64,000 bases of DNA from positions 62,001-126,000 of the forward strand of contig NZ_CP073588.1 of NCBI RefSeq assembly GCF_021560015.1, given 5' to 3'. The first letter of the stretch is position 1, and each line of letters begins with the position of its first letter. Below, one piece after another: positions 12,670 to 58,746 of this stretch. Both the position numbers and the translations under genes were made by a program. The stretch comes from Shewanella vesiculosa. GTDB lineage: Bacteria; Pseudomonadota; Gammaproteobacteria; Enterobacterales; Shewanellaceae. The notes beneath the pieces were generated by a model, which made no database searches, was not told the origin of the DNA, and saw nothing but the letters and a program-made list of their open reading frames with translations.

Positions 12670-12856
12670 AAGCCGCGATGCGCTACGGCGCTAGGAACTC
12701 TCGGGCTCGCCAGAGGGCGGACTGCGTCCTGCTAGGTTGTAACTCTGTCACAGCTAAGGACATGCTTCGCTGCTAAGATTGAGTTGCTGCGCGACTAGGC
12801 TGTTGATTTTATAGCCTCTAGCCGCCAAGCGTCCTAGCAGCGCAGCGCTCTAGGCT
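12670..12856. repeat. CTAG micro-hairpin repeat, cluster A
   Basis: An intergenic mosaic between rdgB and the DUF4426 gene. Left to right: GCTAGGAACT, GGGCTCGCC, AGAGGGCGGACTGCGTCC, TGCTAG, a GCTTCGCTGC module, GCGACTAGGCTGTTG, ATTTTATAG, CTCTAGCCGCC, AAGCGTC, CTAGCAGCGCAGCGCT and CTAGGCT. The same order recurs in clusters C and G, and in part in D, E and M. Confidence 0.8.
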
Positions 12857-12894
12857 CTTTCGCTTTTTATCGCTTGCTATCGAGATTTTAGGCC

Positions 12895-13350
12895 TTAATC
12901 GACATAAAACTTTTGTTTAAATTTCAATGAAGTGTTTAGTTGTTTGCCGTACTTAATGGCAATCGTAAAATTAACTTCTTGATCGTCACGATAAGGCACT
13001 TCTGCTATGTAATAGATTGAGTTTCCTTCACGGATCTCTTTAAAATCAAGCGTTATGCGTGCATCAAGTAGATTATTGGCGATACCCGATATTTCAACTG
13101 GCACTGCAGGGTGTCCATCTTGGCTGGTATTGAGAACGGTAATATTAACTAGACCATTATAACTACTGCGTTCAATACCATAGGTTTTGGCTATTTCTGG
13201 TGTAATAAAGGTGCTATTGAGCGCCATGTAGTGAATATCGAAATTACCGACTTGCTGTTTTTGTTCTGCCTGAGCTGTACTCGTCATTGCCATCAATGAC
13301 AATAATAATATCGGTAAAAGTGAGCGAGATAAACGCAATGATTGAAACAT
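12895..13350 (-). CDS. DUF4426 domain-containing periplasmic protein
   Basis: A 151-residue protein with a signal peptide (SLLPILLLSLMAMTSTAQA, cleavage near AQA-EQ). The mature domain (VGNFDIHYMALNSTFITPEIAKTYGIERS...) matches DUF4426, a beta-rich family of unknown function found mainly in gammaproteobacteria. It sits in the yggU-rdgB interval, where E. coli has no such gene. No catalytic motif is visible. Confidence 0.85.
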   Translation of the reverse strand: MFQSLRLSRSLLPILLLSLMAMTSTAQAEQKQQVGNFDIHYMALNSTFITPEIAKTYGIERSSYNGLVNITVLNTSQDGHPAVPVEISGIANNLLDARITLDFKEIREGNSIYYIAEVPYRDDQEVNFTIAIKYGKQLNTSLKFKQKFYVD

Positions 13351-13384
13351 GATCTTGTCCTTAGCGAGCTGAGCAATAGGGGTA

Positions 13385-13699
13385 TTATAGATGAGTGAGC
13401 TTTAAAAGTGCGGCTATTTCTGCTGGAATAACTTGCGGCTGGCATATTTGTATTTGCTTATGACGGCTATGTTCACCTTTGAGGATATGCACCTGACTTT
13501 TTGCCACTTTACAGGCTTTTGCAAGATACTTAGATAAATGAGCATTGGCTTTACCGTCAATTGGAGGTGCAGTTATGGCTATTTTTAATTCGTTACCGTG
13601 TAAGCCGATAATTTGATCGCGGCTTGCTTTGGGTTGTAGATAAACAAAAAGCAGCAAGTCACCTTGCTGCTCATCGTTGGAATAGCTTATAGCCGTCAT
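13385..13699 (-). CDS. yggU: YggU family (DUF167) protein
   Basis: A 104-residue DUF167 protein. The family core [34 protein letters not shown] is at about residues 22-55. It is a small cytosolic alpha/beta protein of unknown role, conserved next to yggT in many proteobacteria. It starts 20 bp after yggT on the same strand, so probably the same operon. Confidence 0.93.
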
Positions 13700-13719
13700 T
13701 ATTTAGTGATGTCCAACAA

Positions 13720-14499: not shown

Positions 14500-15318
14500 T
14501 TAAAATGTTTTAGCCATTTCTTGGGCGCGGGCAACACAGTTTGTCATTGCTTTATCGACTAATTCCACTAAACCGCCTTGCTGAAAAGTTTCGACGGCTC
14601 TGGCTGTGGTGCCGCCTTTTGACATCACATTTTGACGCAATTCTGTCACCGATAATTGCTGGTTTTGAATCACCATCTGCGCGGCGCCTAAGGCTGCTTG
14701 TTCTGCCAATAATCTTGCTTTGTCTTCTGCCATGCCCATGTTGACCCCAGAAGCGATCATTGACTCAATAAACAAGAAGAAATACGCAGGAGAACTGCCC
14801 GCGAGCGCGATAACCTGATCTAATTCAGCTTCATTATCAACCCAGGTCACTTTGCCGCCACTTTGCATCAAGGTTTCGCAAATCGCTTTATGCTCGGAAG
14901 AAATACTATCATCGGCATAAATACCCGTCATACCGTAACCAATTTGTGTCGGAGTATTAGGCATGGTGCGGATAAGTTTTATTGGCTGTTTAAAATAAAC
15001 AGCATAACGCGATGCAGGAATACCAGCCGCGATAGTAATGATTAACTTATTGGTTAAATCCAGTGAGCTGAGGTCTTCGCAAACGGCGGCCATTAACTGC
15101 GGCTTTACGCTGAGTACAATGACATCCGCAGCTTGTGCTGTTGCATTATTATCATGAGAAACATGAATCGAAAAATCTTGCTGCAAAGCATCCAATTTAC
15201 CTTTACTTGGATTGGTTGCATGAATAAGGTCACTAGGATAGCCATGTTTAACTAAGCCACTAATAATGCTGCGAGTCATATTGCCCGCACCGATAAAACA
15301 TACTTTTGCTTGAGTCAT
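14500..15318 (-). CDS. proC: pyrroline-5-carboxylate reductase
   Basis: Catalyses the last step of proline synthesis, P5C to proline with NAD(P)H. The N-terminal Rossmann motif is VCFIGAGNMTRSIISGL. Downstream are KPQLMAAV, RTMPNTPTQIGYGMTGIY and the C-terminal signature VTELRQNVMSKGGTTARAVETF. The ATG at 15318 (272 residues) is preferred because a GGA site lies at proper distance and the family begins MTQ. A TTG at 15333 would add five residues. It sits between yggS and yggT, the common arrangement in this group. Confidence 0.95.
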   Translation of the reverse strand: MTQAKVCFIGAGNMTRSIISGLVKHGYPSDLIHATNPSKGKLDALQQDFSIHVSHDNNATAQAADVIVLSVKPQLMAAVCEDLSSLDLTNKLIITIAAGIPASRYAVYFKQPIKLIRTMPNTPTQIGYGMTGIYADDSISSEHKAICETLMQSGGKVTWVDNEAELDQVIALAGSSPAYFFLFIESMIASGVNMGMAEDKARLLAEQAALGAAQMVIQNQQLSVTELRQNVMSKGGTTARAVETFQQGGLVELVDKAMTNCVARAQEMAKTF

Positions 15319-15378
15319 TGAGTCTGTATCCAATAAATGAGTGAATTTATGTCCAGTTCGTGTGTATGTTACCTAATT

Positions 15379-15426
15379 CAGTCCTAGGACGCCACGCTTC
15401 TGGGTTCTAGGGGCGCTTTGCTCTAG
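15379..15426. repeat. CTAG repeat, cluster B (short)
   Basis: A short member between proC and yggS: GTCCTAGGACGCC, TTCTGGGTTCTAGGGGCGCTTTGCT and CTAGGCT. It carries the terminal CTAGGCT module of the longer clusters, just after the yggS stop. Confidence 0.6.
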
Positions 15427-15436
15427 GCTATCAGCT

Positions 15437-16119
15437 TTATCTCTCGCCAAAGATCGCACTACCGATACGCACCATGGTCGAACCGTTGGCGATGGCGATG
15501 TCCATGTCATTGCTCATGCCCATGGAAAGGGTATCAACGCTAGGATACTGTTGCTTAAGTTGATCAAATAGCTGCTTTAACTGCGCAAATTCTTGTTGTT
15601 GGATCTGCTCGTCATTAGTGGCGGTAGGAATCGCCATTAATCCACGCAATGTCAGCTGAGATAAAGAGTTGATAGTAAGCGCTAACGTGGCAATATCTTC
15701 AGCATTGACGCCCGATTTAGACTCTTCTTGGCTAATATTAACTTGAATACACACGTTTAATGGCGGTTTGTTATTCGGGCGTTGTTCATGTAAACGCTGG
15801 GCAATTTTATCGCGACTTAAGGTGTGCATCCAATCAAAATGCTCGGCAACAATTTTGCTTTTGTTTGATTGCAATGGGCCGATAAAATGCCATTCGATAT
15901 CTGGGTAATCTGCCTGTAAGGCGGTAATTTTAGTTTCGCCTTCTTGAACATAGTTTTCACCAAATAGACGCTGTCCAGCTTGATAAGCGGCAATGATGTC
16001 ACTGATAGGTTTGGTTTTACTCACCGCCAGCAGGCTTATTTCAGCTGATGATCGTGAACAATTTTGCGCCGCTTAATTCTACTCTGGGCGATTGATATTC
16101 TGTCTGCTATTGTTGTCAT
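15437..16119 (-). pseudogene. yggS: YggS family PLP homeostasis protein, N-terminal frameshift
   Basis: The main open frame (from a GTG at 16024) begins at SKTKPISDII, but YggS proteins carry about 30 more residues. Reading upstream in that frame gives AAQNCSRSSAEISLLAVSKTKP with no start codon before a stop. The family N-terminus MTTIADRISIAQSRI starts at an ATG at 16119 in another frame. Adding one A at 16073-16074 joins them into about 227 residues, the usual length. The pyridoxal-phosphate lysine is in AVSKTKP. Later blocks are FGENYVQEG, WHFIGPLQSNKS and MGMSNDMDIAI. The protein binds PLP and buffers it. This is a one-base sequencing error or a real 5' frameshift; a GTG-started short protein would lack the first strand. 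Confidence 0.88.
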
Positions 16120-16131
16120 AATGTTGGTTAA

Positions 16132-17184
16132 ATGGATGTCTCTACAATGGAAATCACTGAATTACTCGCCTTTAGTGTAAAACACAAAGCATCAGATCTA
16201 CATCTTTCAGCAGGCGTATCTCCTATGATCCGCGTTGACGGTGAGGTAAGGAAAATCAATTTACCTGCGTTAGATCATCAAGGCGTCCATAGTCTTGTCT
16301 ATGACATCATGAATGATAAACAACGTAAAGACTATGAAGAACATCTAGAAATCGATTTTTCATTTGAAGTGCCTAATTTAGCGCGTTTTCGTGTTAACGC
16401 ATTTAATCAGTCCCGTGGCGCTGGCGCAGTATTTCGTACCATTCCCTCTGAAATTTTATCGCTTGAGCAACTTGGCGCCCCAGAAATATTTAAAAAAATT
16501 GCCAGTTACCCACGTGGATTAGTATTAGTTACAGGGCCTACCGGTTCGGGTAAATCAACGACACTTGCTGCGATGGTCGATTACGTTAATGAAAATCGCC
16601 ATGACCATATCTTAACCATCGAAGACCCAATAGAATTTGTCCATCAAAATAAGCAATGCTTAATCAATCAGCGTGAAGTTCACAAACATACCCATAGCTT
16701 TAATGCCGCATTAAGAAGTGCATTACGTGAAGATCCCGATGTGATTCTTGTGGGCGAGATGCGCGACCTTGAAACGATCCGCTTAGCTATGACAGCAGCC
16801 GAAACCGGTCACTTAGTGTTTGGTACTTTGCATACCACCTCAGCCGCCAAAACCATTGACCGTGTGGTCGACGTGTTTCCCGAAGGTGAAAAAAGTATGG
16901 TGCGCACCATGTTGTCTGAATCGCTTCAGGCGGTTATTTCGCAAACATTAATCAAGAAGATTGGCGGTGGCCGAGTTGCTGCTCACGAAATTATGATGGG
17001 TACTCCAGCAATTCGAAACCTCATTCGTGAAGACAAAGTGGCGCAAATGTACTCCGCTATTCAAACGGGTATGTCTCATGGCATGCAAACCCTTGATCAA
17101 TGTCTGCAAAACTTGGTCAATAGAGGCTTAATTACCCGTGAAGATGCAATGCAGAAGAGCTCGAATAAACAAGCTAATTTCTAA
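16132..17184 (+). CDS. pilT: type IV pilus retraction ATPase PilT
   Basis: A 350-residue hexameric ATPase driving pilus retraction and twitching. Walker A GPTGSGKST is near residue 137, the Asp box near LTIEDPIEFVH, Walker B in DPDVILVGEMRD, the His box in HLVFGTLHTTSAAKT, and the C-terminal AIRNLIREDK. The family usually begins MEITELL, which is the ATG at 16147 (345 residues). The upstream ATG at 16132 adds MDVST; neither has a clear ribosome binding site. pilU follows after 12 bp. The start is only about 12-27 bp from the divergent yggS start, so promoters must overlap coding DNA. Confidence 0.96.
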   Translation: MDVSTMEITELLAFSVKHKASDLHLSAGVSPMIRVDGEVRKINLPALDHQGVHSLVYDIMNDKQRKDYEEHLEIDFSFEVPNLARFRVNAFNQSRGAGAVFRTIPSEILSLEQLGAPEIFKKIASYPRGLVLVTGPTGSGKSTTLAAMVDYVNENRHDHILTIEDPIEFVHQNKQCLINQREVHKHTHSFNAALRSALREDPDVILVGEMRDLETIRLAMTAAETGHLVFGTLHTTSAAKTIDRVVDVFPEGEKSMVRTMLSESLQAVISQTLIKKIGGGRVAAHEIMMGTPAIRNLIREDKVAQMYSAIQTGMSHGMQTLDQCLQNLVNRGLITREDAMQKSSNKQANF

Positions 17185-20568: not shown

Positions 20569-21582
20569 TTGGCTAGATTTTCAGGGCTAGATAAAGAAAC
20601 CGGTCACAAAGCGCGTGGCAAAACCGGTGTATTATTATTAAATCTAGGTACACCAGATGCACCAACCGCATCAGCTGTTCGCATCTATTTAGCTGAGTTT
20701 TTGGCGGATCCTCGTGTCGTCGAAATTCCAAAACTGATATGGATGATTATTCTTCATGGGATTATTTTACGTATTCGTCCAGCTAAATCAGCAGCCTTAT
20801 ACAAACAAGTGTGGACCGAAGCCGGTTCGCCTCTACTCGACATTAGCCAACGTCAGCAAGCCAAACTAGCCAATCATTTACACGCGCAAGGGCATGATGT
20901 GAGCGTCCATTTGGCTATGCGTTATGGTTCTCCATCAACGGCCAGTACCCTGCAAGCAATGCACAAACAAGGTGTAGATAATTTAGTGGTTTTGCCTTTA
21001 TACCCACAGTACGCGGCTCCAACAACGGGTTCGGCATTTGATGCTTTAGCCAAAGAATTAATGAAATGGCGTTATATCCCCGCACTGCACTTTATTAACA
21101 CCTACCATGACAACCCTGATCTTATCGATGCGCTTGCAGCATCGATTGAAAAAGATTTTGAACAACACGGAAAACCACAAAAACTGGTGATGTCTTATCA
21201 TGGTATGCCTGAACGCAATCTGCATCTAGGCGATCCTTATTATTGTTTTTGTATGAAGACAACTCGCTTAGTGGTAGAAAAATTAGGCCTAACTGAAGAT
21301 GAGTATGTGGCAACATTCCAGTCTCGCTTTGGTAAAGCTAAATGGTTACAACCATACACAGACGTAACCATTGGTAGTCTGCCTGAAAAAGGTGTTACCG
21401 ATATCGCCGTTATCTGCCCAGCATTTAGTGCCGATTGTTTAGAAACCTTAGAAGAAATTAAGGGCGAAAATCGTCACGTATTTGAAGATGCTGGTGGCAA
21501 AAACTTTAGATACATTGAATGTTTAAATGACAATGATGATCATATCAATATGATGGCAAATCTTGTTAAACCTTTTCTATAA
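20569..21582 (+). CDS. hemH: ferrochelatase
   Basis: A 337-residue enzyme inserting Fe(2+) into protoporphyrin IX, the last step of heme synthesis. The start is a TTG with a strong ribosome binding site (ACGGAGAAGA) eight bases upstream. Family motifs are GVLLLNLGTPDAPT at the N-terminus, the catalytic His in SYHGMPERNL, and the metal-side Glu-rich CLETLEEIKGENRHVFEDAGG near the end. CFCMKTT is also conserved in this branch. It is monocistronic; a repeat cluster begins three bases after the stop. Confidence 0.96.
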   Translation: MARFSGLDKETGHKARGKTGVLLLNLGTPDAPTASAVRIYLAEFLADPRVVEIPKLIWMIILHGIILRIRPAKSAALYKQVWTEAGSPLLDISQRQQAKLANHLHAQGHDVSVHLAMRYGSPSTASTLQAMHKQGVDNLVVLPLYPQYAAPTTGSAFDALAKELMKWRYIPALHFINTYHDNPDLIDALAASIEKDFEQHGKPQKLVMSYHGMPERNLHLGDPYYCFCMKTTRLVVEKLGLTEDEYVATFQSRFGKAKWLQPYTDVTIGSLPEKGVTDIAVICPAFSADCLETLEEIKGENRHVFEDAGGKNFRYIECLNDNDDHINMMANLVKPFL

Positions 21583-21585
21583 TTA

Positions 21586-21766
21586 TAGGGCGTGACTCCG
21601 TCACTGCGAGGGCGCTTCGCTTCTAGGGCGGACTGCGTCCTGCTAGGGACAGCTTCGCTGCTAAGATCCTTGGCCGCTATGCGGCTAGGCTGTTGATTTT
21701 ATAGAATCTAGCCGCGTAGCGTCCTAGCAGCGCAGCGCTCTAGGCTGTTGCGTACCTAGGCTTTTA
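21586..21766. repeat. CTAG micro-hairpin repeat, cluster C
   Basis: The fullest copy, between hemH and yciH. Modules in order: GGGCGTGACTCCGTCAC, GGCGCTTCGCTTCTAG, GGCGGACTGCGTCCTGCTAG, GGACAGCTTCGCTGCTAAG, GGCCGCTATGCGGCTAG, GCTGTTGATTTTATAGAAT, CTAGCCGCGTAGCGTC, CTAGCAGCGCAGCGCT, CTAGGCTGTTG and ACCTAGGCTTTTAG. The palindromic modules have 4-5 bp arms around a 3-nt loop. Confidence 0.85.
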
Positions 21767-22171: not shown

Positions 22172-22344
22172 GGGCTTGTTGGTCTGTGGTGGTCAATATT
22201 TATTCGAACCCTTCGGGCAATCTTTTTAGCGGCTTTATACTGCGTTATCGCCTGTTGATCTAGTATAACTACATCAACAAGTTCTGCCTTGTATGACATG
22301 GCTACAAATCGCGGTAAAAATCATCTGGAAAGACCAACAAGCCC
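22172..22344. mobile_element. MITE-like element with 14-bp inverted ends
   Basis: GGGCTTGTTGGTCT (22172-22185) and AGACCAACAAGCCC (22331-22344) are exact inverted repeats bounding 173 bp. No open frame fits a transposase. The interior is partly structured (GAACCCTTCGGGCAATC, TACATCAACAAGTTC). I see no clear target duplication. It lies between yciH and yqgE and ends 29 bases before the yqgE start. I believe similar elements occur in Shewanella, but this was not checked. Confidence 0.7.
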
Positions 22345-22937: not shown

Positions 22938-23044
22938 TAGTTCGCTGCGCTTCTAGGACGGACTTCGTCCTGCTAGGGTCGCTGCGCTGCTAAGATTTAT
23001 AGAATCTAGCCGCGAAGCGTCCTAGCAGCGTAGCGCTCTAGGCT
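22938..23044. repeat. CTAG micro-hairpin repeat, cluster D
   Basis: Between yqgE and ruvX, starting four bases after the yqgE stop. Modules: GTTCGCTGCGCTTCTAG, GACGGACTTCGTCCTGCTAG, GGTCGCTGCGCTGCTAAG, ATTTATAGAATCTAG, CCGCGAAGCGTC, CTAGCAGCGTAGCGCT and CTAGGCTGTT. It separates genes that usually abut. Confidence 0.8.
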
Positions 23045-23522: not shown

Positions 23523-23686
23523 TCTAGGCCGCTACGCGGCTAGGGCGTGGCTGCGTCACTGCTAGGGCGTGACTACGTCACTGCTAGGGTCGCTTCGCTG
23601 CTAGGGCGTGACTGCGTCACTGCTAGTGTCGCTGCGCTGCTAGGATTTTATAGGATCTAGCAGCGTAGCGTTCTAGCATCTAGGCT
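23523..23686. repeat. CTAG micro-hairpin repeat, cluster E (tandem modules)
   Basis: The most repetitive cluster. After GGCCGCTACGCGGCTAG come three copies of GGCGTGNCTNCGTCACTGCTAG alternating with two of GTCGCTNCGCTGCTAG. Variable bases fall in the loop or one arm (GTGGCTGCGTCAC, GTGACTACGTCAC, GTGACTGCGTCAC). It ends with the core ATTTTATAGGATCTAG, CAGCGTAGCGTT and CTAGCATCTAGGCT. Confidence 0.85.
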
Positions 23687-23980: not shown

Positions 23981-24076
23981 GCACTTAGCAGCGTAGCGTT
24001 CCTAGCAGTGACGAAGTCACGCCCTAGCACCTCGAAGCGCAGCGATCTAGCAGGACGCAGTCCGCTCTATGCTTAG
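23981..24076. repeat. CTAG micro-hairpin repeat, cluster F (reverse orientation)
   Basis: Immediately upstream of the phosphatase gene at 24106. Modules: TTAGCAGCGTAGCGTTC, CTAGCAGTGACGAAGTCACGC, CCTAGCACCTCGAAGCGCAGCGAT, CTAGCAGGACGCAGTCCGC and TCTATGCTTAG. The GGACGCAGTCC and GTGACGAAGTCAC modules are the reverse complements of those in clusters C and E. Confidence 0.8.
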
Positions 24077-26213: not shown

Positions 26214-27950
26214 ATGTCAGTAATGGATGGATTACAGCAAAAGCTGCAGCAACAACTGGGCTGCATTTATAATGATATCGACATTAATATCAGCTTGTCA
26301 GCATTGGCAACTCAGCTTATCGATATCATGCGTATCACAGAGTATTGCCAAGTACCTGAGCCTTTTGCAAATCATTGGTCTGAAAAAGACATCATAATGA
26401 TCACTTATGGTGACAGTGTGATCCAACAAGGCGAGCGACCGCTCACCACACTGGCGCAATTTATCGACAGCTACCTAAGTTGCATCAATGCGGTGCACAT
26501 TTTACCGTTTTTCCCTTACAGTTCAGACGATGGCTTCTCAGTTATTGATTATTCAAGCGTCAACGAAGGGCTAGGCTCGTGGGCAGACATTAGTGCTATT
26601 GCCAGTAAACGGAGGTTAATGTCAGATTTAGTGATCAATCATTGCTCTAGTCGGAGCTTATGGTTTGAGAATTTCTGTAAAGGTGAGGGCATAGGTCATG
26701 ATTACTTCTTTACTGCCAATCCAAATGATGACTTAAGCGCTGTCGTTCGGCCAAGAACCTCAGCATTATTAAGACCAACAGAAACACCTAACGGCACGGA
26801 ATATGTGTGGTGCACCTTTAGCCATGATCAAGTTGATTTTGATTTTCGCAATCCACAAGTATTAATCGAGTTTGTGCGCATCATTCGTCAATATTTAGAT
26901 GCCGGTGTGAGTATTTTTCGCCTCGATGCGGTGGCGTTTTTATGGAAAATAGTCGGTAACAAATCCATCAACTTAGCGCAGACCCATGAGGTTGTGCGTT
27001 TATTGCGGACCCTGATCGAGCATGCGCAGCAAGATGCCATTATTATTACCGAAACCAATATCCCTAACACTCAAAACTTAACTTACTTTGGCAATGCTAA
27101 CGAAGCACATTGCATATATAACTTTTCCTTGCCACCTTTGTTGATCAACAGCCTTATTACTGGCAGCTGTTTGTATTTAAAGCGTTGGCTTATGAGCATG
27201 CCGCCCGCTCAAGATGGCACTACTTACTTTAATTTTATTGCTTCTCACGATGGTATTGGTTTACGTCCAGCGGAAGGCTTACTTGAAGATGATGAGATTG
27301 ATACTCTGGTCGAAACCATGAAACTGTTTGGCGGCCAAATTTCATCCAGAACCACAGAAGATGGCCAGCAAAAACCGTATGAAATGAACATCGCTCTGTT
27401 TGATGCACTTCAAGGCACCACCAAAGGCAAAGACTCATGGGGTATGCAGCGTTTTGTGTGCGCGCATAGCATTATGTTAGCCCTAGAAGGCATTCCAGGT
27501 ATTTATATTCACAGTTTATTGGGAACTCGCAATGACTATGAAAAGCTGGCCAATACTTCGCATAATCGGGCTATCAATCGTCATCGTTGGGATTTCAATC
27601 AACTAACAGAACAACTGAGTGATGCTAACAGCGACCACAGCCAAGTGTTAACGACGCTCACTCATCTAATCAATATTCGTACCCAGCAAATTGCATTTCA
27701 TCCTAATGCGACTCAATTTACCTTGCACCTTGGGTTACAGCTATTTGGTTTCTGGCGTCAAAGTCGTAATCGTAAACAAAGTATCTTCTGCATCAGTAAT
27801 GTATCGGACCAAATTACTGATCTGCCCATTAATGAACTTAACCTTATTATTGCAGAATACTGGGTCGACCTATTAACCGGGCAGCAAATAGAAGACATCA
27901 CCCAACCCATGCCATTGCAACCATACCAAACAGTGTGGATTAGTAACTAG
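26214..27950 (+). CDS. GH13 sugar phosphorylase, probably glucosylglycerate phosphorylase
   Basis: A 578-residue GH13_18-type protein of the sucrose phosphorylase family. The nucleophile Asp is in [12 protein letters not shown] (about residue 236), the acid/base Glu in IITETNIPN (about 280), and the stabilising Asp in [10 protein letters not shown] (about 345). The context of a GpgS-like and a phosphatase gene argues for glucosylglycerate phosphorylase, a known specificity in this subfamily, over sucrose. It would recover glucose-1-phosphate and glycerate. It starts 25 bp after the synthase gene behind GAGGAC. The TAG stop coincides with the first CTAG of repeat cluster G. Confidence 0.85.
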
Positions 27951-28096
27951 GGCGCTAGGTGCTAGGTTCTAGGAACTCGCAGGCTCGCCAGAGAGCGGAC
28001 TGCGTCCTGCTAGGACAGCTTTGTCGCTGCGCGACTAGTCTGTTGATTTCATAGTCTCTAGCCGCGTAGCGTTCTAGCAGCGAAGCGCTCTAGGCT
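27947..28096. repeat. CTAG micro-hairpin repeat, cluster G
   Basis: Begins with the CTAG that also supplies the stop codon of the phosphorylase gene. Modules: GGCGCTAGGTGCTAGGTTC, TAGGAACTCGCAGGCTCGCC, AGAGAGCGGACTGCGTCC, TGCTAGGACAGCT, GTCGCTGCGCGACTAG, CTGTTGATTTCATAG, CTCTAGCCGCGTAGCGTT, CTAGCAGCGAAGCGCT and CTAGGCT. Same order as clusters A and C. Confidence 0.85.
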
Positions 28097-28182
28097 CTTC
28101 AACTATGAAATCTTGTTAACTTGACAACGCCTTTGCTCTCTATAAGCTAATAACAATTAACGTCTTGTTTTTTGGAGCCTGT

Positions 28183-28792: not shown

Positions 28793-29648
28793 GTTGCGCG
28801 AGAGTCCTCTGTTCATCGGTGTTTGAGCATAAAAGGCTTATTGTGATAAAGCGCATAAGGTTAACGATTTACACTTCAAAACAAGATTATACTGTGAGCA
28901 TGCATAGAGTCAGTTGACCTTCGCTGATTAAGTTTTGTTCGATGTAAGAGTGTTAATCGAGGTGAGTTGATGTCGCCTAGCAATCTAAGCAACTATCACT
29001 TGGAGAAAATGCACTCAACAAAGAGTAAAACGTTTTAGCTGATCCTTCGAGCTGCGTTAGTTGGCCATTTCAAGGGGGTTATTGGCTTTTATGTGGCATA
29101 ACGCTACCGCAAAGGCCCAGTGTTATCATTTATGTTTTTTCATAAACCAATAATGTGCAGCTACAACAAGCTTGGAAGATCAACAGAGCCTAACCTAGTT
29201 GGATCCATACACTCGCAATGATGACATTATCGACTCAAGCTATAGGCCGTAATAGTTAATACCCTAAATGGCACTGGCAAATCTTTCATTCGCTGTCTTG
29301 ATTTTAATACCGCAGATGTAGTGACAAAAGTGGCATTTTTGACTCTCAAGTAAACCTTTTGCTGTGAATTACTGTTAATTACCACTTTTTAGAACACATA
29401 AAACAAAATTAACAGAATGTCATATGTTAAAATTATTTTTTCAACGTCGAATGATAAATCAATTAGTTACTCAATAACGACTTGTGTTTTTGATGAAAAT
29501 AAAATCAACCGATGATTTAAACGCTGTATTTATAGGCATTAAGGCTTAAATACCCATTCAAAAGGATAGGGAAGTTTGCTAGTATCCTAAGCCGTGAATG
29601 GGACGTCACTTGTTCAGACTGATGAGCAAATATAAAAAGAGAGAGATA
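28793..29648. other. long gene-poor region upstream of rfaH
   Basis: About 850 bp with no recognisable gene. It contains scattered short inverted repeats, and at 29101-29111 a minus-strand sequence TGCGGTAGCGT that is one base off the ops consensus. Some of 29040-29190 looks like a degraded mobile repeat (GAGCTGCGTTAG, CTACAACAAGCTTGG), but I cannot assign it. The last 200 bp are AT-rich and likely hold the rfaH promoter. Confidence 0.4.
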
Positions 29649-30161
29649 ATGAAATCTTGGTATTTACTGTATTGCAAGCCACGGCATGAAGTCCGTGCTC
29701 AGCAAAATTTAGCTTTGCAAGAAGTTGAAAGCTACTTACCAATGATCACCCAACAAAAAACAGTGCGTAACAAACCACAACTGGTTACCGCGCCTCTGTT
29801 TCCTAGCTATCTGTTCATCTATTTCGATCCTCAAATCACTAGTGTCAGCAAAATCCACAATACCCGTGGTGCTAACCGCATTGTGGGTTGTCGAGAAGAC
29901 ATGACTCCCATTGACGATAGAATTATTTCGGCACTTAAAAGACGTGTCCAAGGCTATGTGCCAGAAGAGGTCAAGCCGTTAGACAAAGGCGATAAGGTCA
30001 AATTTATCGACGGACCGTTTAAAGATCTTGAAGCCATATTTGACGAGAACAATCCTGATAAGCGTTGCCATGTGTTATTTAACATTATGGGGCAGCAGAA
30101 ACGAATTCTGGTTGAATTGACAAGTTTACAAGCAATATCAGCAACCGATAAACCGACTTAA
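29649..30161 (+). CDS. rfaH: transcription antiterminator RfaH
   Basis: The ATG at 29649 (170 residues) starts MKSWYLLYCKPRHEVRAQQNL, the classic RfaH N-terminus; the open frame upstream of it has no family similarity. The NusG N-terminal domain binds RNA polymerase and the ops element in non-template DNA (PLFPSYLFIYFDP). The C-terminal KOW domain (LDKGDKVKFIDGPFKDLEAIF) recruits ribosomes. RfaH enables long, poorly translated surface-polysaccharide operons to be expressed. An ops element lies 294 bp after its stop, at the head of the polysaccharide operon. Confidence 0.95.
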   Translation: MKSWYLLYCKPRHEVRAQQNLALQEVESYLPMITQQKTVRNKPQLVTAPLFPSYLFIYFDPQITSVSKIHNTRGANRIVGCREDMTPIDDRIISALKRRVQGYVPEEVKPLDKGDKVKFIDGPFKDLEAIFDENNPDKRCHVLFNIMGQQKRILVELTSLQAISATDKPT

Positions 30162-30331
30162 ATAAACTCTTTGTCAGAGAATAGCTGTTTTTGTTGTAGG
30201 AAATTGTCCATTTGTAAATTTAGGACTAATGTTTAAAAAGACTTTTTGACCCTTAAACGGTTAAATATTGTTCGTTTAAATAGTGTTTTTACTCTTTTGC
30301 AACATTATACAAACGTTTAGGTATTTTTTAC

Positions 30332-30362
30332 TTGAGCATCCTAATCTGTTTTTGAGTATAAT
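30332..30362 (+). promoter_or_regulatory. candidate promoter of the polysaccharide operon
   Basis: TTGAGC (30332-30337) and TATAAT (30357-30362) are separated by 19 bp. The -10 is perfect, the -35 moderate. A small hairpin (GCGCT...AGCGC, 30366-30380) sits at the expected transcript start, and the ops element lies about 85 nt downstream. Confidence 0.4.
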
Positions 30363-30454
30363 TCCGCGCTTGATTAGCGCTTGTTTCAGTTTAAAGCTAA
30401 TAGAAAAATTAAAGATTCGTACAGCGAAGGGCATGTTGGAAGCCGTAATCCATG

Positions 30455-30465
30455 GGCGGTAGCGT
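30455..30465 (+). promoter_or_regulatory. ops element (RfaH recruitment site) within a JUMPstart-like leader
   Basis: GGCGGTAGCGT matches the ops consensus GGCGGTAGNNT exactly. It is preceded by CAGCGAAGGGCATGTTGG, AAGCCGTAATCCATG, a layout like the JUMPstart sequence of enteric O-antigen and capsule operons. It is untranslated, 194 nt before the first gene of the operon. Confidence 0.88.
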
Positions 30466-30476
30466 GTCTTAAATAG

Positions 30477-30617
30477 GCCGCTTCGCTACTAGGACCTAGA
30501 ACCTAGAAGTGACGAAGTCACGCTCTCTGGCGAGCCTGCGAGTTCCTAGAACCTTGCAGCGCAGCATCCTCGCATGACGCAGTCGGCCCTTTAGCGAGCC
30601 TGCGAGCTCCTACAACC
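30477..30617. repeat. CTAG micro-hairpin repeat, cluster H (reverse orientation)
   Basis: In the leader of the polysaccharide operon, between ops and the export gene. Modules: GGCCGCTTCGCTACTAG, GACCTAGAACCTAG, AAGTGACGAAGTCACGC, TCTCTGGCGAGCCTGCGAG, TTCCTAGAACC, GCAGCGCAGC, ATGACGCAGTCGG and GCGAGCCTGCGAGCTCC. Some modules are degenerate (CTAG lost). Confidence 0.75.
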
Positions 30618-30648
30618 TTCTTATAAAAAATAATATTGGAGATATCTG

Positions 30649-33381
30649 GTGCTACATAAAACCAAAAACGTGTTACTAGCTGGCTTATCGGCCTTTATTA
30701 TTTTAACCACCCAAGTGCAGGCTATTACCCCAACACCGCAAATGATTGAGCAGTTTAAACAATTGCCTAAATCTGAACAGGAAAGAGTTGCGCGTCAGTA
30801 TGGAATAGATCCTTCAATGTTATCAGGCAGTGCCAATAGCGCTGTTAACGTAAGCAACCCTACTGTTGTTGAACCTCGTCAAAATCAATCAAATGAACAG
30901 CAACAAAGCGCTAGAAAGAGTGAGTTTGATTTCAATCAAGACAGTGATAAAAACCAATTAAAACGTTTTGGCTACGAAATGTTTGCTGGTGAGCCAACCA
31001 CCTTTGCACCTGTCACAGACGTACCTGTACCAAGCGACTATATGGTCGGCCCTGGCGATGTGATTAAAGTTCAACTTTATGGCAAAGAAAGTAACGAATA
31101 CAGTTTAACCATTAATCGTAATGGTACAGTACAAATTCCCGATTTAGGCCCAGTATCTGTTGCTGGACTAAGCTTTGCCGATTTACGTCAAGAATTGTCT
31201 AAACGCATAAAGCAGCAAACGATTGGTATCGAATCTAATATCACCATGGGTGAATTACGTTCAATTCGCATTTTCATTGCTGGCGATGCCTACAAACCAG
31301 GCTCATATACTGTATCGAGTTTATCAACCATTACTCAGGCGTTGTTTGTGGCTGGCGGTGTTAACGAAATCGGTAGTCTTCGTAATGTGCAAGTTAAGCG
31401 TGGCGGTAAGTTAGTCGGCTCATTTGATTTATACGATTTACTGCTGCGAGGCGATGCTTCTGGAGACATCAATCTTCGTTCTGGTGATGTAGTGTTCATT
31501 CCATCGATTGGCGGGTTAGTCAGTGTCGCTGGTGAAGTGCAACGTCCTGCTATTTACGAGTTGAAAAAGCATGAAACTATTGCCGATGTCATCAATATGG
31601 CTGCCGGTATCAAGCAAGATGCCTATCCTAAAAATAGCAGTATCGAACGTTATAATGCTAATGGTTTGAAAACGATTATTAATGTTGATTTAACCTCAGA
31701 TAAAGGCAACAACACGATAGCCAAAGCTGGTGATTACATTCGGGTTAAAAGTGCTTCAAATCAATATGAAGACGCCATCACTGTGGTCGGTGCCGTGGTT
31801 CGCCCAGGTAAATATCAGTGGAAGCAACAACGTATTAGCGATGTATTACCTTCAATTTGGGGCGATTTATTATTATCTGCTGACCTCGACTACGGTTTAG
31901 TGGTTCGTGAAATTAACAAACATGGTGACATCGAAACCTTACAGTTTGCTCCAGGTGAAGCGATTACATCACCTAATTCTATTCAAAACATTGCTTTACA
32001 GCCTCGTGATAAAATAATCATCTTTAACTTCAGTGACGATACTCAAAACCGTTTTGAATTGAATTCATTAGTTAAAAAGCGTGTCAGCAAAGTTAAATCA
32101 CTGAAAAGTGACTCACTACTGGATGCCGATCTGTTTAAAGCTGGATTTGAAACCTTAGACAATACCGTAGCAAGCAAATACACCAATCAAATAGCCGGTG
32201 TCGCATTAAATGAGCAATCATCTGAAGAGCAAACGCTGGTTAGCAGCGAAGTGGCTAAAATGCTGTCTAATTTATTTGAAGACCGTGATTTAATCAAACT
32301 CAGTAATGTTATGTCACGTAAAGAACTGCTATATCCCATTGTGACCAAGCTAACTCAGCAAGGTAATTCACAACATGGCATTTTGATTGTGGCTATCGCG
32401 GGAAAAGTTCGCCATCCAGGCGTGTACCCATTAACAAATTCAGCAAAAGTGACCGACTTAGTTAAAGCCGCTGGCGGCTTACTCGAAGGCGCTTATATTG
32501 AACGCGCTGAACTAACACGCACTCATACTACCTCGGCAGTATCCGATATTATTCACCAACAAGTTAACCTTTCTGCTGCGCTTAATGGTAACCAACAAGA
32601 CAATATCGAGCTGAAAGGTCGCGATATGATGACTATTTTGACCACGCCAGACTGGCAAGAAAGAAAAGTAGTCGAAGTTAAAGGTGAAGTTAAGTTCCCA
32701 GGAACTTATAACATCAGGCGTGGTGAGACGTTGTCAGACGTTATCGCTAGGGCGGGTGGCTACACTGAGTTCGCTTATCCTTCTGCGGCGGTATTTGTCC
32801 GTGAGTCAGTACGGATGCAAGAACAGCTTGAAATTAAAAAGTTAGCCGATCAACTGCGCCGAGATATCGCTACTCGTGGGGTATCAAAAGATGGCTTAAG
32901 CATTAATTATTCCGAAGCACAATTAATGTTAACTGACTTAGAAAATATCAAAGCCGTTGGCCGATTAGTTATAGACTTAAATGCGCTTAAGTTAGGTATT
33001 AAAGAAGCTGATGTTCAACTTGAAGACAGCGATGTATTGTACGTGCCAACCATTAAGCAAACAGTTGCCGTTATGGGTGAGGTTCAACATCCTTCAACTC
33101 ACAGATTTAAAGATGGTTTAACCCTTGGCGACTATCTAGATATGTCTGGTGGCCCAAGAGAGCGCGGTGATGAAGACCGAGTTTATGTTATCAAGGCTGA
33201 TGGTTCAGTGATGATGCCAACACAAAGTATTTGGTTTAATACCGACTCGCAAATTTCGGCTGGCGACACTGTTATCGTACCGCTAGACACTGAGTACAAA
33301 GATAACTTAACCCTTTGGTCGCAAGTGACACAGATTATTTATAATACCGCGGTAGCATTTGCAGCAGTTTCAGGTATCTAA
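30649..33381 (+). CDS. polysaccharide export protein, Wza/OtnA-like, multiple SLBB domains
   Basis: A 910-residue export protein starting at GTG with TTGGAGA upstream. It has a signal peptide (LLAGLSAFIILTTQVQA), then a linker rich in Gln and Asn. A Poly_export domain begins at about residue 122 (VPSDYMVGPGDVIKVQLYG), and several SLBB/soluble-ligand-binding repeats follow (IFIAGDAYKPGSYTVSSL, VSVAGEVQRPAIYELKK, TVVGAVVRPGKYQW, VEVKGEVKFPGTYNIRRGE, VAVMGEVQHPSTHRFKDG). A hydrophobic C-terminal helix ends VAFAAVSGI. It is far larger than E. coli Wza and resembles the OtnA/WbfF type of vibrios. First gene of the RfaH/ops operon. Confidence 0.9.
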   Translation: MLHKTKNVLLAGLSAFIILTTQVQAITPTPQMIEQFKQLPKSEQERVARQYGIDPSMLSGSANSAVNVSNPTVVEPRQNQSNEQQQSARKSEFDFNQDSDKNQLKRFGYEMFAGEPTTFAPVTDVPVPSDYMVGPGDVIKVQLYGKESNEYSLTINRNGTVQIPDLGPVSVAGLSFADLRQELSKRIKQQTIGIESNITMGELRSIRIFIAGDAYKPGSYTVSSLSTITQALFVAGGVNEIGSLRNVQVKRGGKLVGSFDLYDLLLRGDASGDINLRSGDVVFIPSIGGLVSVAGEVQRPAIYELKKHETIADVINMAAGIKQDAYPKNSSIERYNANGLKTIINVDLTSDKGNNTIAKAGDYIRVKSASNQYEDAITVVGAVVRPGKYQWKQQRISDVLPSIWGDLLLSADLDYGLVVREINKHGDIETLQFAPGEAITSPNSIQNIALQPRDKIIIFNFSDDTQNRFELNSLVKKRVSKVKSLKSDSLLDADLFKAGFETLDNTVASKYTNQIAGVALNEQSSEEQTLVSSEVAKMLSNLFEDRDLIKLSNVMSRKELLYPIVTKLTQQGNSQHGILIVAIAGKVRHPGVYPLTNSAKVTDLVKAAGGLLEGAYIERAELTRTHTTSAVSDIIHQQVNLSAALNGNQQDNIELKGRDMMTILTTPDWQERKVVEVKGEVKFPGTYNIRRGETLSDVIARAGGYTEFAYPSAAVFVRESVRMQEQLEIKKLADQLRRDIATRGVSKDGLSINYSEAQLMLTDLENIKAVGRLVIDLNALKLGIKEADVQLEDSDVLYVPTIKQTVAVMGEVQHPSTHRFKDGLTLGDYLDMSGGPRERGDEDRVYVIKADGSVMMPTQSIWFNTDSQISAGDTVIVPLDTEYKDNLTLWSQVTQIIYNTAVAFAAVSGI

Positions 33382-33387: not shown

Positions 33388-33510
33388 GAGGTTCTAGAAA
33401 CTCGCAGGCTCGCCAGAGGGCGGACTTCGTCCTGCTAGGACGCTAAGCTTCTAGGGTTTTATCGCAGGCCGTAGGCCGCTCTAGCAGCGAAGCGCTCTAA
33501 GATTCTAGAT
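33388..33510. repeat. CTAG micro-hairpin repeat, cluster I
   Basis: Between the export gene and the four-helix-bundle gene. Modules: GGTTCTAGAAACTCGCAGG, CTCGCC, AGAGGGCGGACTTCGTCC, TGCTAG, GACGCTAAGCTTCTAG, GTTTTATCG, CAGGCCGTAGGCCGCT, CTAGCAGCGAAGCGCT and CTAAGATTCTAG. One boundary CTAG has decayed to CTAA. Confidence 0.78.
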
Positions 33511-33540
33511 ACAAGATACTCAATGTCAGAAGGAACTGAT

Positions 33541-52926: not shown

Positions 52927-53128
52927 GCCTAGAGCGCTGCGCTGCTAGTTTGCTACTAGATGCTAAGAATAGGGCGCCTGCGGCTGCTAGAAGTTATACA
53001 ATCAACAGACTAGTCGCACTGTGACTCAATGTTAGCAGCGGAGCTGTCCCTAGAAGCGAAGCGATCCTAGTAGGACGTAGTCCGCTCTCTGGCGAGCCTG
53101 CGAGTTCCTAGAACCTAGCAAGACTAGG
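52927..53128. repeat. CTAG micro-hairpin repeat, cluster K (reverse orientation)
   Basis: Between galU and glmM, the reverse complement of the clusters A, C and G order: AGCCTAGAGCGCTGCGCTG, CTAGTTTGCTACTAGATG, GGGCGCCTGCGGCTGCTAG, AAGTTATACAATCAACAG, ACTAGTCGCACTGTGACTC, TTAGCAGCGGAGCTGTCC, CTAGAAGCGAAGCGATC, CTAGTAGGACGTAGTCCGC, TCTCTGGCGAGCCTGCGAG, TTCCTAGAACCTAG. Confidence 0.8.
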
Positions 53129-55858: not shown

Positions 55859-55878
55859 TGTATTTTTTAACTTTTTTG

Positions 55879-55920
55879 CTAGAACCTAGAACCTAGAACC
55901 TAGAACCTAGAACCTAGAAC
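55879..55920. repeat. (CTAGAAC)6 tandem repeat
   Basis: Six perfect copies of the heptamer CTAGAAC, ending at the AGGA ribosome binding site of rmlA, nine bases before the ATG. The same heptamer occurs once or twice in clusters H, J and K, so it is one module of the CTAG family expanded here. Confidence 0.95.
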
Positions 55921-55929
55921 AGGACATTT

Positions 55930-56799
55930 ATGAAAGGAATTATTTTAGCGGGTGGTTCTGGGAGTCGTTTATACCCACTTACGCGAGGTGTATCAAAACA
56001 GTTATTGCCTGTTTACGATAAACCAATGATATATTATCCCTTGTCAACATTAATGCTTGCAGGAATAAGCGACATATTGATAATTACCACGCCAGAAGAC
56101 AGAGAAAATTTTAAACGTTTACTCGGTGATGGAGCTGATTTTGGTATCAATTTAACATATGCAGTGCAACCTTCACCAGATGGACTCGCTCAGGCATTTT
56201 TGATCGGTGAAGCATTTATCGGTAAAGACAGTGTTTGTCTAGTCTTGGGTGATAATATTTTCTATGGTCAATCTTTTAGTAAAACACTTAAGAGTGCGGC
56301 TAATAAAACACACGGAGCAACCATTTTTGGCTATCAAGTCAAAGATCCAGAAAGATTTGGTGTAGTTGAATTTGATGAAAATATGAAAGTCATATCAATT
56401 GAGGAAAAACCTACCAAGCCTAAATCAAATTATGCAGTTACAGGCTTATATTTCTATGATAACAAGGTTGTTGAAATGGCAAAGCAAGTTAAGCCATCAC
56501 TCCGTGGAGAATTAGAAATAACGACGCTAAACGATATGTATTTAAATCAAGGTAATTTGAACGTTGAGCTACTCGGCCGAGGCTTTGCATGGTTAGATAC
56601 TGGCACTCATGAAAGTTTACACGAGGCCTCTTCTTTTGTGCAGACCATTGAGAATGTTCAAGGGTTAAAAATTGCTTGTTTAGAAGAAATAGCTTGGCGT
56701 AATGGTTGGTTAAATTCAGAGCAGCTTGCTGAAATAGCGATACCGTTAATGAATAATCGTTATGGTCAATATTTAAATCGTTTAATTAACGAGGCTTAA
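55930..56799 (+). CDS. rmlA: glucose-1-phosphate thymidylyltransferase
   Basis: A 289-residue enzyme making dTDP-glucose from dTTP and glucose-1-phosphate. [39 protein letters not shown] is the signature, with LGDNIFYG and [20 protein letters not shown]. The ribosome binding site AGGA lies directly next to the tandem heptamer repeat. rmlD follows after 2 bp. Confidence 0.97.
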
Positions 56800-56801
56800 G
56801 C

Positions 56802-57680
56802 ATGAGAATATTGGTCACAGGTAAAAATGGCCAAATTGGTAGGTGCTTAGTTGAGCAACTTAGCACTATGTCAGATATCACCTTGTTGGCATTAGATCGT
56901 GACCAGCTTGATATTACAGACTCTATTAACGTCAATAAGGTTGTTGCTGAATTCATTCCGAATATCATTATCAATGCTGCTGCCTATACTGCGGTTGATA
57001 AAGCCGAACAAGAGCGTGAATTTGCTTATGCTGTAAATCGTGATGGACCTTATAACCTTGCTGTTGCAGCGAATAATATCAATGCCACTATTATTCATAT
57101 TTCGACCGATTATGCTTTTGCTGGCGATAGTATTGCAGCTTATGTTGAGACAGATAACACCGAACCTCAAAGTGAGTATGGTCGTAGTAAACTCGCTGGT
57201 GAACAAGCCGTTGAACGAGCGTGTTCGCGGCATATTATACTAAGGACCGGGTGGGTATTTGCCGAACACGGCCATAATTTTGTCAACACCATGCTGCGCC
57301 TTACTAAAACCAGAGACACTTTAGATGTTGTAGCTGATCAGTTTGGCGGCCCAACCTATGCGGCTGATATTGCCAACGCGATTATCATTATCACGAAACA
57401 GCTGGCTAATGGTAATCAAGCTTATGGGCTATATCATTATTCAGGTTTTCCTTATGTAAGCTGGCATGCTTTTGCTGAAAAGATATTCGAACTGGGGTTA
57501 GCGCAAGGTATATTGAAGCAATCAATTCAAGTTAACCCAATAACAACTCCAGATTACCCGACACCCGCAAAGCGCCCGGCAAACTCACAGTTAAATTGTC
57601 ATAAAATTAAGCAAGAATTTGGTATCGTTCAAAGTGATTGGCAAGCAGCGTTAGTCAGAATTGAAGAGTATTCACGATGA
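56802..57680 (+). CDS. rmlD: dTDP-4-dehydrorhamnose reductase
   Basis: A 292-residue SDR protein for the final step to dTDP-L-rhamnose. RILVTGKNGQIGRCLVEQL, INAAAYTAVDKAEQE, ISTDYAFAGD, YGRSKLAGEQAVE and WVFAEHGHNFVNTMLRL are the family motifs. Length is normal. The last 4 bp overlap rmlC. Confidence 0.96.
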   Translation: MRILVTGKNGQIGRCLVEQLSTMSDITLLALDRDQLDITDSINVNKVVAEFIPNIIINAAAYTAVDKAEQEREFAYAVNRDGPYNLAVAANNINATIIHISTDYAFAGDSIAAYVETDNTEPQSEYGRSKLAGEQAVERACSRHIILRTGWVFAEHGHNFVNTMLRLTKTRDTLDVVADQFGGPTYAADIANAIIIITKQLANGNQAYGLYHYSGFPYVSWHAFAEKIFELGLAQGILKQSIQVNPITTPDYPTPAKRPANSQLNCHKIKQEFGIVQSDWQAALVRIEEYSR

Positions 57681-58225
57681 AAGTCATCGCTACAAAAATT
57701 CCAGATGTGAAGATAATAGAGCCAAGCGTGTTTGGTGATGATCGTGGCTTTTTTATGGAGACTTGGAGTCAGCAACAGTTTGAAGCACTCGTGACAGGCA
57801 AGCCTACCATTTTTGTTCAGGATAACCATTCAAAGTCAAACAAGGGAATATTACGCGGTTTACATTATCAAACAAAACATACTCAAGGAAAGCTGGTACG
57901 TGTCGTGAGCGGTGAAGTGTTTGATGTGAGTGTGGATATTCGTAAAGGCTCACCTACCTTTGGTCAATGGATCGGTGTTTATTTGTCTGCCGACAACAAA
58001 CGTCAATTGTGGATCCCTGAAGGCTTTGCGCATGGTTTTTATGTAACAAGTGACCAGGCGGAATTTATTTACAAATGTACTGATTACTATTGCCCTGAAT
58101 CTGAAGTGAGTATTGCCTGGAATGATCCCGCTATTGGCATTAATTGGCCGTTAGATAAGCCACCTTTATTATCAAATAGAGATGCACATCAAAGTATATT
58201 GCTCAAGTACGCACAGTGTTTATAA
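57677..58225 (+). CDS. rmlC: dTDP-4-dehydrorhamnose 3,5-epimerase
   Basis: A 182-residue cupin enzyme. VKIIEPSVFGDDRGFFMETW, FVQDNHSKSNKGILRGLHYQ (catalytic His), VRVVSGEVFDVSVDIRKGSPTFGQW, and PEGFAHGFYVTSDQAEFIYKCTDYYCPESEVSIAWNDP. It epimerises C3 and C5. Last gene of rmlBADC; the order B-A-D-C is usual for many gammaproteobacteria. Confidence 0.97.
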   Translation: MKVIATKIPDVKIIEPSVFGDDRGFFMETWSQQQFEALVTGKPTIFVQDNHSKSNKGILRGLHYQTKHTQGKLVRVVSGEVFDVSVDIRKGSPTFGQWIGVYLSADNKRQLWIPEGFAHGFYVTSDQAEFIYKCTDYYCPESEVSIAWNDPAIGINWPLDKPPLLSNRDAHQSILLKYAQCL

Positions 58226-58558
58226 CATTTAGCAGCCTTTATTGGTTTACCATGTTTAAAAGAGCTGTTAACTGAGCCATTAGCATGATTATTCACTCAG
58301 TCATTAATGTTACAAACTAACCTCTGGCTATTTATATCAACTGTATATTGGCTTTGTTACTCTGCTTTTTAATATTTTCTCCGCTATATCCATTATCCAT
58401 CTGGCTTACCTCTCTGATGCATAGCATCGTTCAACCCTTGCTATGTACTTTTACCGATAATATTTTCATGGAACAGATAAGCCTGAACGAGTTATCTGAT
58501 CTTCGAAGCCCCAATTATCAACCTTTTCAAACCTCATATTTTCTTCATTATTTTCGTT
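58226..58558. other. region after rmlC
   Basis: About 330 bp with no convincing gene. A 77-codon frame at 58348 has no recognisable product or good ribosome binding site. I see no strong terminator after rmlC. Confidence 0.4.
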
Positions 58559-58746
58559 TCGCTTCGCTGGTAAGATTCTAGGTTGCTATGCGGATAGTGC
58601 GCTTAGCTTCTAGAACGGACTTCGTCCTGCTAGGGACAGCTTCGCTGTGCGATTTGCTTTTATAGAATCTAGCCGCGTAGCGTACTAGCAGCGCAGCGCT
58701 CTAGGCTGTTGCTAAAATTTTGTCGCATCTAGCAGCGCTCTAGGCT
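58559..58746. repeat. CTAG micro-hairpin repeat, cluster M
   Basis: Modules: CGCTTCGCTGGTAAG, TTCTAGGTTGCTATGCGG, GCGCTTAGCTTCTAG, AACGGACTTCGTCCTGCTAG, GGACAGCTTCGCTG, TTTTATAGAATCTAG, CCGCGTAGCGTA, CTAGCAGCGCAGCGCT, CTAGGCTGTTGC, then a partial duplicate GCATCTAGCAGCGCT, CTAGGCT. It ends three bases from the stop of the interrupted metallo-hydrolase gene. Confidence 0.83.

Follow-up and report, generated by a model that had tools for sequence, protein, structure and literature searches.

A REP-like family of CTAG-tagged hairpin repeats in the Shewanella frigidimarina clade

What kind of repeat fills spacers between genes with short hairpins joined by the tetranucleotide CTAG, and how is it copied? 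The question is raised by a stretch of 64,000 nucleotides of Shewanella vesiculosa (hereafter the window), which spans positions 62001-126000 of a complete, single-contig genome of 4,782,877 bases (hereafter the own genome; G000). A preliminary description of the window had reported CTAG-joined hairpin clusters of four types with no named relative. We found a single family of intergenic hairpin repeats with covarying stems, whose unit is laid out much like that of repetitive extragenic palindromic (REP) elements. Our preferred reading, to which we give a probability of about one half, is that this is a CTAG-tagged, REP-like family of extragenic palindromic repeats, characteristic of the S. frigidimarina clade, that is copied at single-stranded hairpins and is tolerated, or perhaps even useful, at the 3′ ends of genes.

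The clade as used here comprises 14 genomes including the own genome, and the RuvX proteins of the 13 others are 96-99% identical to that of the window. Labels matched to named records are S. frigidimarina KCTC 23109 (G068), S. inventionis (G077), S. metallivivens (G089), S. algicola (G044), S. ulleungensis (G140), S. saliphila (G103), S. basaltis (G051), Shewanella sp. KJ10-1 (G094) and Shewanella sp. SG41-4 (G120).

Hairpin core, stems and arrays of the window

We define a cluster as at least three CTAG with gaps of at most 60 bp; groups with fewer than three CTAG were removed before every cluster count. The window has 16 clusters, 12 of which contain at least one core of the form C-GNA-G (C-TNC-G on the other strand). 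These 12 (1284 bp) hold 71 of the 182 CTAG in the window, a density of 55.3 per kb versus 1.77 per kb in the rest. The high density of CTAG in the preliminary description is therefore confirmed, but the supposed scarcity of the tetranucleotide is only mild (635 seen versus 742 expected across 18 sampled 20-kb stretches).

Hairpins with 3-base loops are about threefold enriched in the window: with stems of at least 4 bp, CTAG arms excluded and 200 dinucleotide shuffles, we counted 35 versus a shuffle mean of 11.3 and a maximum of 20. Those with 4-base loops number 4 (mean 11.5) and those with 5-base loops 18 (mean 11.1, maximum 22). A wider comparison used 27 stretches of the own genome and 18 of relatives. 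Triloop hairpins are there denser inside clusters than outside (15.2 versus 4.5 per kb in the own genome, 24.5 versus 5.0 in relatives), while loops of 4-7 bases show no clear enrichment in clusters. The core accounts for 32 of 80 triloop hairpins in own-genome clusters versus 40 of 2489 outside, and for 220 of 500 versus 25 of 1632 in relatives; much of the remainder in clusters consists of CTAG-NNN-CTAG hairpins or of the core itself read in a shifted register. Similarly, GC-NNN-GC 7-mers have a GNA or TNC loop in 61/100 cases in clusters versus 184/1822 outside (own) and in 385/543 versus 117/1352 (relatives), and 7-mers of the GC-GNA-GC type reach 11.6 per kb in own-genome clusters versus 0.34 per kb outside.

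The four hairpin types previously distinguished are actually one. All share the core, and the form AGCG-NAG-CGCT is this core shifted by one base. The stems vary (GGAC, GTGAC, CAGC, GGCC, CCGC, GACC, GTGC and others), and their arms stay complementary as had been proposed: the three core-adjacent pairs covary, and substitution without complementarity was not the outcome. Among 37 distinct window units, stem positions 1-3 pair in 78, 51 and 43% versus 40, 26 and 24% with shuffled partners, positions 1 and 2 exceeding the maximum of 500 shuffles and position 3 not. The 64 distinct units of the own genome give 80, 45 and 41% versus 45, 24 and 23%, with position 3 below the shuffle maximum (0.41 versus 0.42). 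In 186 units of relatives (75, 39 and 43% versus 40, 24 and 23%), position 3 passes the shuffle maximum. Positions 4-6 have no clear pairing excess in this test.

The middle loop base was thought to vary freely, but in the GNA orientation G is rare (10/199 distinct 13-mers). An RNA UNCG tetraloop was considered and rejected, as the base following the loop does not fit. According to excerpts of a study of DNA mini-hairpins, a GNA loop on at least two G-C pairs forms an extraordinarily stable, nuclease-resistant mini-hairpin of single-stranded DNA (PMC4686876). Because this rule concerns single-stranded DNA, it favours a process at the DNA level.

One core-bearing cluster, 20573-20647, lies within the open reading frame of hemH. 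Regarding it as chance leaves 11 hairpin arrays. Together with one decayed array and one bare heptamer array they make 13 sites, whereas the coreless clusters 3654-3705 and 62747-62818 are of another kind. The figure of at least 13 intergenic clusters given in the preliminary description thus holds as 13 sites between genes, except that one array begins within a stop codon; by predicted genes, all 11 hairpin arrays are intergenic. The sites, none of which is assigned a strand, are:

12690-12853: hairpin array flanked by two minus-strand genes; 6 CTAG, units on both strands
15384-15426: decayed array; 3 CTAG, no intact core, full arrays at this site in relatives
21587-21759: hairpin array 3′ of hemH; 7 CTAG, 6 cores, site occupied in eight of the 13 clade genomes that gave data
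22940-23041: hairpin array in the yqgE/ruvX spacer; 5 CTAG, 5 cores
23524-23683: hairpin array 3′ of ruvX with tandem GTGAC units; 10 CTAG, 7 cores
23984-24066: second array of the ruvX 3′ spacer, GNA run only; 3 CTAG, 5 cores
27947-28093: hairpin array whose first CTAG contains the stop codon of gene 26214-27950; 9 CTAG, 5 cores
30476-30605: hairpin array beyond a JUMPstart match; 4 CTAG at 30489-30549 and degenerate units
33394-33508: hairpin array with gene 30649-33381 on one side and gene 33523-33918 on the other; 5 CTAG, 5 cores
33950-33991: short array; 3 CTAG, 1 core (cluster count)
52929-53127: hairpin array; 10 CTAG, 6 cores
55879-55917: bare CTAGAAC heptamer array with no hairpin units; 6 CTAG, 0 cores
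58560-58743: hairpin array between convergent genes; 8 CTAG in 58578-58743, 5 cores

The JUMPstart element (30429-30466, 45.8 bits) lies directly ahead of the array at 30476. The yciH/yqgE spacer holds an insert resembling a miniature inverted-repeat transposable element (MITE) at 22172-22344, with ends GGGCTTGTTGGTC and GACCAACAAGCCC; this spacer is 252 bp long in the own genome versus 73-78 bp in 12 clade genomes.

Unit layout and its relation to REP elements

In the GNA orientation, units with the two commonest perfect stems read CTAG-CA-stem-GNA-stem-GYY-CT. CTAG is present in 23/25 such units of the own genome and 150/175 of relatives, CA in 22/25 and 144/175, and the tail G[CT][CT] in 24/25 and 171/175. 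Among 80 distinct contexts of GGAC/GTGAC-type units, CTAG is the tag in 57, CT opens the 3′ side in 74 and AG closes the 5′ side in 69. Flanks other than CTAG retain these dinucleotides (3′ side: CT 35/41, AG 6/41; 5′ side: AG 12/23, CT 11/23; p = 0.003, although many CTCT flanks derive from one repeated composite, so that contexts are partly dependent, and this and all later p values are too small because genomes and units are related). Given this retention, the unit seems to be bounded by AG and CT, that is, AG-CA-stem-GNA-stem-GYY-CT, with units chained head to tail and CTAG representing the CT/AG junction of two of them. Since CTAG is self-complementary, it can also close a hairpin, as in folds of two 20-nt units.

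In mixed pairs within arrays, the TNC core stands ahead of the GNA core 76 times out of 88 in the own genome and 1126 times out of 1229 in relatives. Both core types occur in 17 own and 59 relative clusters, and one type only in 5 and 36. Given this order, a whole array is usually a broken inverted repeat; the tags of its two opposite runs face an AT-rich centre, about TTTTATAG. Higher-order tandem repeats were also seen, such as the 825-bp run in G099 (L088).

The preliminary description knew of no named family of this structure. A covariance-model scan of the whole window with Rfam indeed found JUMPstart only, with no family at gathering score on the arrays, and no CTAG-tagged hairpin family was found in open-access literature text, a coverage that leaves out subscription journals, preprints and figures. 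However, the layout of the unit matches that of REP elements, so the family is less isolated than had been held. In excerpts of a survey of the REP superfamily (PMC3733652), GTAG-1 and GTAG-2 are extragenic, often clustered families with a tetranucleotide tag GTAG, an unpaired GW dinucleotide and a 3-bp tail, and they are present in five Shewanella species. The CTAG units share the extragenic position (all 11 window arrays), a 3-bp tail (G[CT][CT], compared by presence rather than by identity) and, as predicted from sequence, the CT beside the hairpin that is a trait of REPs mobilised by RAYTs (74/80). The tag GTAG was seen in 0 of the 80 distinct units, and CA occurs instead of GW.

No REP-type RAYT was found in any of the 14 clade genomes. 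A search for Y1 transposases matched nothing in the own genome, and some Y1 gene is present in 8 of the 14. As the family departs from REPs in both tag and transposase, we do not count it among them despite its layout. The CGTC REPs likewise have no visible transposase, according to the same excerpts (PMC3733652). A RAYT as the present-day mobiliser is unsupported in the clade, the REP-type enzyme (about 149 aa) sitting among GTAG REPs.

Across the genus, a Y1 transposase occurs in 74 and a REP-type RAYT in 17 of 129 genomes. Any Y1 gene is found in 32/47 genomes that bear CTAG modules versus 42/82 others (p = 0.07), and a REP-type RAYT in 9/47 versus 8/82 (p = 0.18). Six of 12 loci are true REPtrons, in which a RAYT of 149-153 aa lies among GTAG-GT-CGGCAT hairpins (L300, L301, L303, L305, L306 and L309); L307 has hairpins of a GTAG-GA type. 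At L300, a CTAG unit lies less than 250 bp downstream of the REP-type RAYT. The Y1 genes of L130-L145 mostly encode a single conserved protein (about 230 aa), without hairpins or modules at its flanks and mostly 59-98% identical; L140 and L145 end early, and L141 is distant.

Genomic distribution, gene ends and turnover

One module pattern has 22 exact matches in the own genome, 12 of them in the window and the rest mostly in a few neighbourhoods, and its reversed control has none there. A second pattern has 21 matches in that genome when up to two mismatches are allowed. Eighteen evenly spaced 20-kb stretches contain no hairpin array (a group of four CTAG in one of them, L024, is of another type). 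As had been suggested, a search of related Shewanella genomes recovers the modules. They are present in 47 of the 129 genomes of the genus and reach 146 copies in G099, and the GTGAC pattern is present in 20 of 129; these presence counts use exact patterns and are lower bounds. Together with the CTAG density, the triloop excess and the covariation, this supports the repeated intergenic family that the preliminary description had proposed. Under a strict definition, modules are present in 9 of the 80 named loci that lie no more than 6 kb from ruvX and absent from the other 71. In an order-wide scan, 11 of 394 genomes match, three of them outside Shewanella, and the family is thus nearly restricted to the genus. 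The match in G161, one of the three, lies within a reading frame and appears to be chance. Two genomes of another genus of the order, G324 (L291, 6596-6695) and G208 (L292, 6507-6574), carry tandem CTAGGTCGCTTCGCTG, which is the 16-bp unit of Shewanella.

Arrays tend to lie behind genes. Based on our own, loose gene calls, arrays occupy 4 of 74 divergent spacers of at least 60 bp versus 70 of 430 others (p = 0.012). In 75 tandem spacers, the array starts at a median of 24 bp past the upstream stop and ends 60 bp ahead of the next start. Array orientation relative to transcription is balanced, at 31 to 27 in relatives and 5 to 7 in the own genome.

At the hemH-yciH spacer, some clade genomes have a terminator where others have an array. 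Among 13 clade genomes with data, eight have an array, S. metallivivens, S. algicola and strain KJ10-1 have a classical terminator, and G112 and strain SG41-4 have other inverted repeats. With a likewise loose terminator finder, 8 of 60 array spacers at seven sites scored versus 23 of 59 other spacers (p = 0.0017); arrays generally do not take the intrinsic terminator form of a GC-rich hairpin followed by a T run. The fold of the hemH array beats all 200 shuffles both as RNA (z = −3.73) and as DNA (z = −3.33), so folding does not discriminate between the two.

Several spacers are repeatedly occupied across the clade, if not in every genome: 14500-15437, hemH-yciH, yqgE-ruvX, ruvX-24106, 26214-28165 and 29598-30649; spacers above 3 kb were removed from this clade comparison, from the terminator scoring above and from the 10-mer comparison below. 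No arrays were seen across the clade in the divergent spacer 15437-16132 or in short operon-internal spacers. At occupied sites, whole units come and go. An exact 16-bp unit is absent in G083 at hemH-yciH and in S. frigidimarina KCTC 23109 at yqgE-ruvX, and the remaining differences between relatives are longer or less exact. Among 47 arrays (at least three modules and two cores each), those at different sites of the same genome share 0.188 of their 10-mers, versus a mean of 0.114 and a maximum of 0.157 in 300 shuffles of labels within sites; sharing is 0.195 for the same site in different genomes and 0.105 for the remaining pairs. Similarity within genomes as well as within sites indicates that arrays descend in place and also exchange sequence inside a genome. 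At yqgE-ruvX, three outgroups (G138, G008 and G041) carry bare CTAG-NNN heptamers; their hairpin units lie at 29598-30649.

Some of these spacers hold other repeats. G112 (L180) has an inverted array of short units, about AACAAGCGATAAC on the left and the complement on the right, at hemH-yciH, yqgE-ruvX and 14500-15437, and strain SG41-4 (L183) has such an array at hemH-yciH. In the outgroups G020 (L195), G127 (L196) and G069 (L198), the hemH-yciH spacer is filled by a palindromic repeat of the GATCCCCGATAAGAGATCTCGGGGATGACG type.

Possible explanations and known systems

Under our preferred reading, the copying step would act on single-stranded DNA folded into GNA mini-hairpins. Slipped or template-switched replication, together with exchange between arrays, would add, drop and spread whole units, probably with no dedicated transposase operating in the clade at present. 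Arrays would persist behind genes, where hairpins are harmless, and their RNA may act as a substitute terminator or 3′ guard. A bolder form of this idea is that the unit of heredity is the mini-hairpin itself: any stem that closes C-GNA-G between CTAG ends could be copied, so that stems diversify while the loop is kept, and a transposase-free family would be rewritten unit by unit behind genes, where it could replace terminators. We regard this form as rather improbable.

Several observations weigh against the preferred reading. The stability rule calls for two G-C pairs beside the loop, where stems of the GGAC and GTGAC kinds, as read from the sequence, would place C-G and then A-T. The rule also permits G in the loop, yet the arrays avoid it. 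Because GNA and TNC are complementary, the sequence alone does not reveal whether the constraint acts on one strand or the other, or on DNA or RNA. The balanced orientation does not favour a directional RNA role, and the terminator finder also scored two array spacers at hemH-yciH (S. frigidimarina KCTC 23109 and S. ulleungensis). Descent in place explains the strong local clustering in the own genome only partly. Finally, the inflated significance of the p values applies here as well, and modules are somewhat commoner in genomes with a Y1 or RAYT gene, where an enzyme may have had a past role.

That last point leads to a possible, if doubtful, alternative, in which the units are non-autonomous REPs whose mover, a TnpA-REP (RAYT), either has disappeared from the clade or uses CTAG as a variant tag, with CT/AG marking the sites of cutting and joining. 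The succession of tag, dinucleotide, hairpin, 3-bp tail and CT fits a substrate of TnpA-REP. According to excerpts of work on these enzymes, they cut at a CT 5′ or 3′ of the REP, one enzyme cuts a CTAG-mutated substrate, though less well, and in a Marinomonas REP two bases separate the tag from a 5-bp stem (PMC8266576), so a link to the CTAG family is possible. REP-type RAYTs do exist in the genus, one of them close to a CTAG unit (L300). However, none is present in the clade, the own genome gives no Y1 match, and the RAYTs of the six REPtrons accompany GTAG-GT-CGGCAT hairpins instead; none of the 80 distinct CTAG units carries the tag GTAG. Moreover, 15 of the 16 loci of longer Y1 genes contain no modules, and the sixteenth has one.

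We consider it unlikely that the arrays are primarily functional gene-end modules, selected as terminators or mRNA 3′ guards with growth as a by-product. Their position just past stop codons, the avoidance of divergent spacers, the stable RNA fold and the presence of terminators or other inverted repeats in their place at hemH-yciH agree with such a role. By contrast, the yqgE-ruvX site ranges from 138 to 676 bp in the clade counts, with 135 bp in S. ulleungensis, and both its content and its length differ many-fold between species, no orientation is preferred and no U-rich tail is required, and modules are not matched in 82 of 129 genus genomes. A neutral satellite, in which CTAG heptamers grew by tandem slippage, hairpins arose fortuitously and no particular single-strand step took part, is very unlikely: the bare heptamers of the three outgroups and the higher-order tandem repeats suit it, but covariation, a nearly fixed core with varied stems and two ordered runs exceed what slippage gives, and the same outgroups carry hairpin units at 29598-30649. 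Some IS5-family elements make a 4-bp target duplication, and CTAG could be read in this way if the arrays were remnants of one insertion sequence, a MITE or recombination sites of the integron type. This is highly improbable, since CTAG stands between every small unit rather than around one insert. In indirect tests of such an origin, plasmid and phage records gave no match to one 191-base array, and a plasmid or phage source was rejected; one exact-module scan of viral contigs gave seven matches, each a lone module with no array in the 160 bases examined, and another gave none.

The CTAG family bears on the origin and spread of REP-like repeats without a visible transposase, to which it contributes a defined unit and a chemical loop rule. 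Closely related species that differ unit by unit at common sites provide material on how repeats spread. If arrays do replace terminators, they would illustrate a route from selfish or neutral repeats to gene-end signals.

Compared with known systems, the family combines a REP-like layout with a tag of its own and a strict loop rule. As far as the excerpts of the cited sources go, GTAG-1 and GTAG-2 share with the CTAG family a short palindrome, a tetranucleotide tag, an unpaired dinucleotide, a 3-bp tail, clustering and extragenic position, whereas the CTAG tag, the CA dinucleotide, chaining at a shared CT/AG and the lack of a RAYT in the clade set this family apart (PMC3733652). REPtrons and substrates of TnpA-REP resemble it in the CT by the hairpin and, in Marinomonas, in a 5-bp stem, small loop and 2-base gap, but differ in that the CTAG family has no cognate transposase that we could find (PMC8266576). 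The inverted REP pairs of BIME and REPIN composites recall the two opposite runs around a spacer; the CTAG arrays have many units per side, with tags facing inward (PMC3116915, and PMC8266576 for BIME). Small palindromic repeats of organelles are also hairpin repeats in spacers, in other hosts, a likeness of description rather than sequence (PMC4524435). DNA mini-hairpins of the d(GCGNAGC) type have the same C-GNA-G loop with a variable middle base, but they are a chemical motif rather than a repeat family, and the arrays avoid G at that base (PMC4686876).

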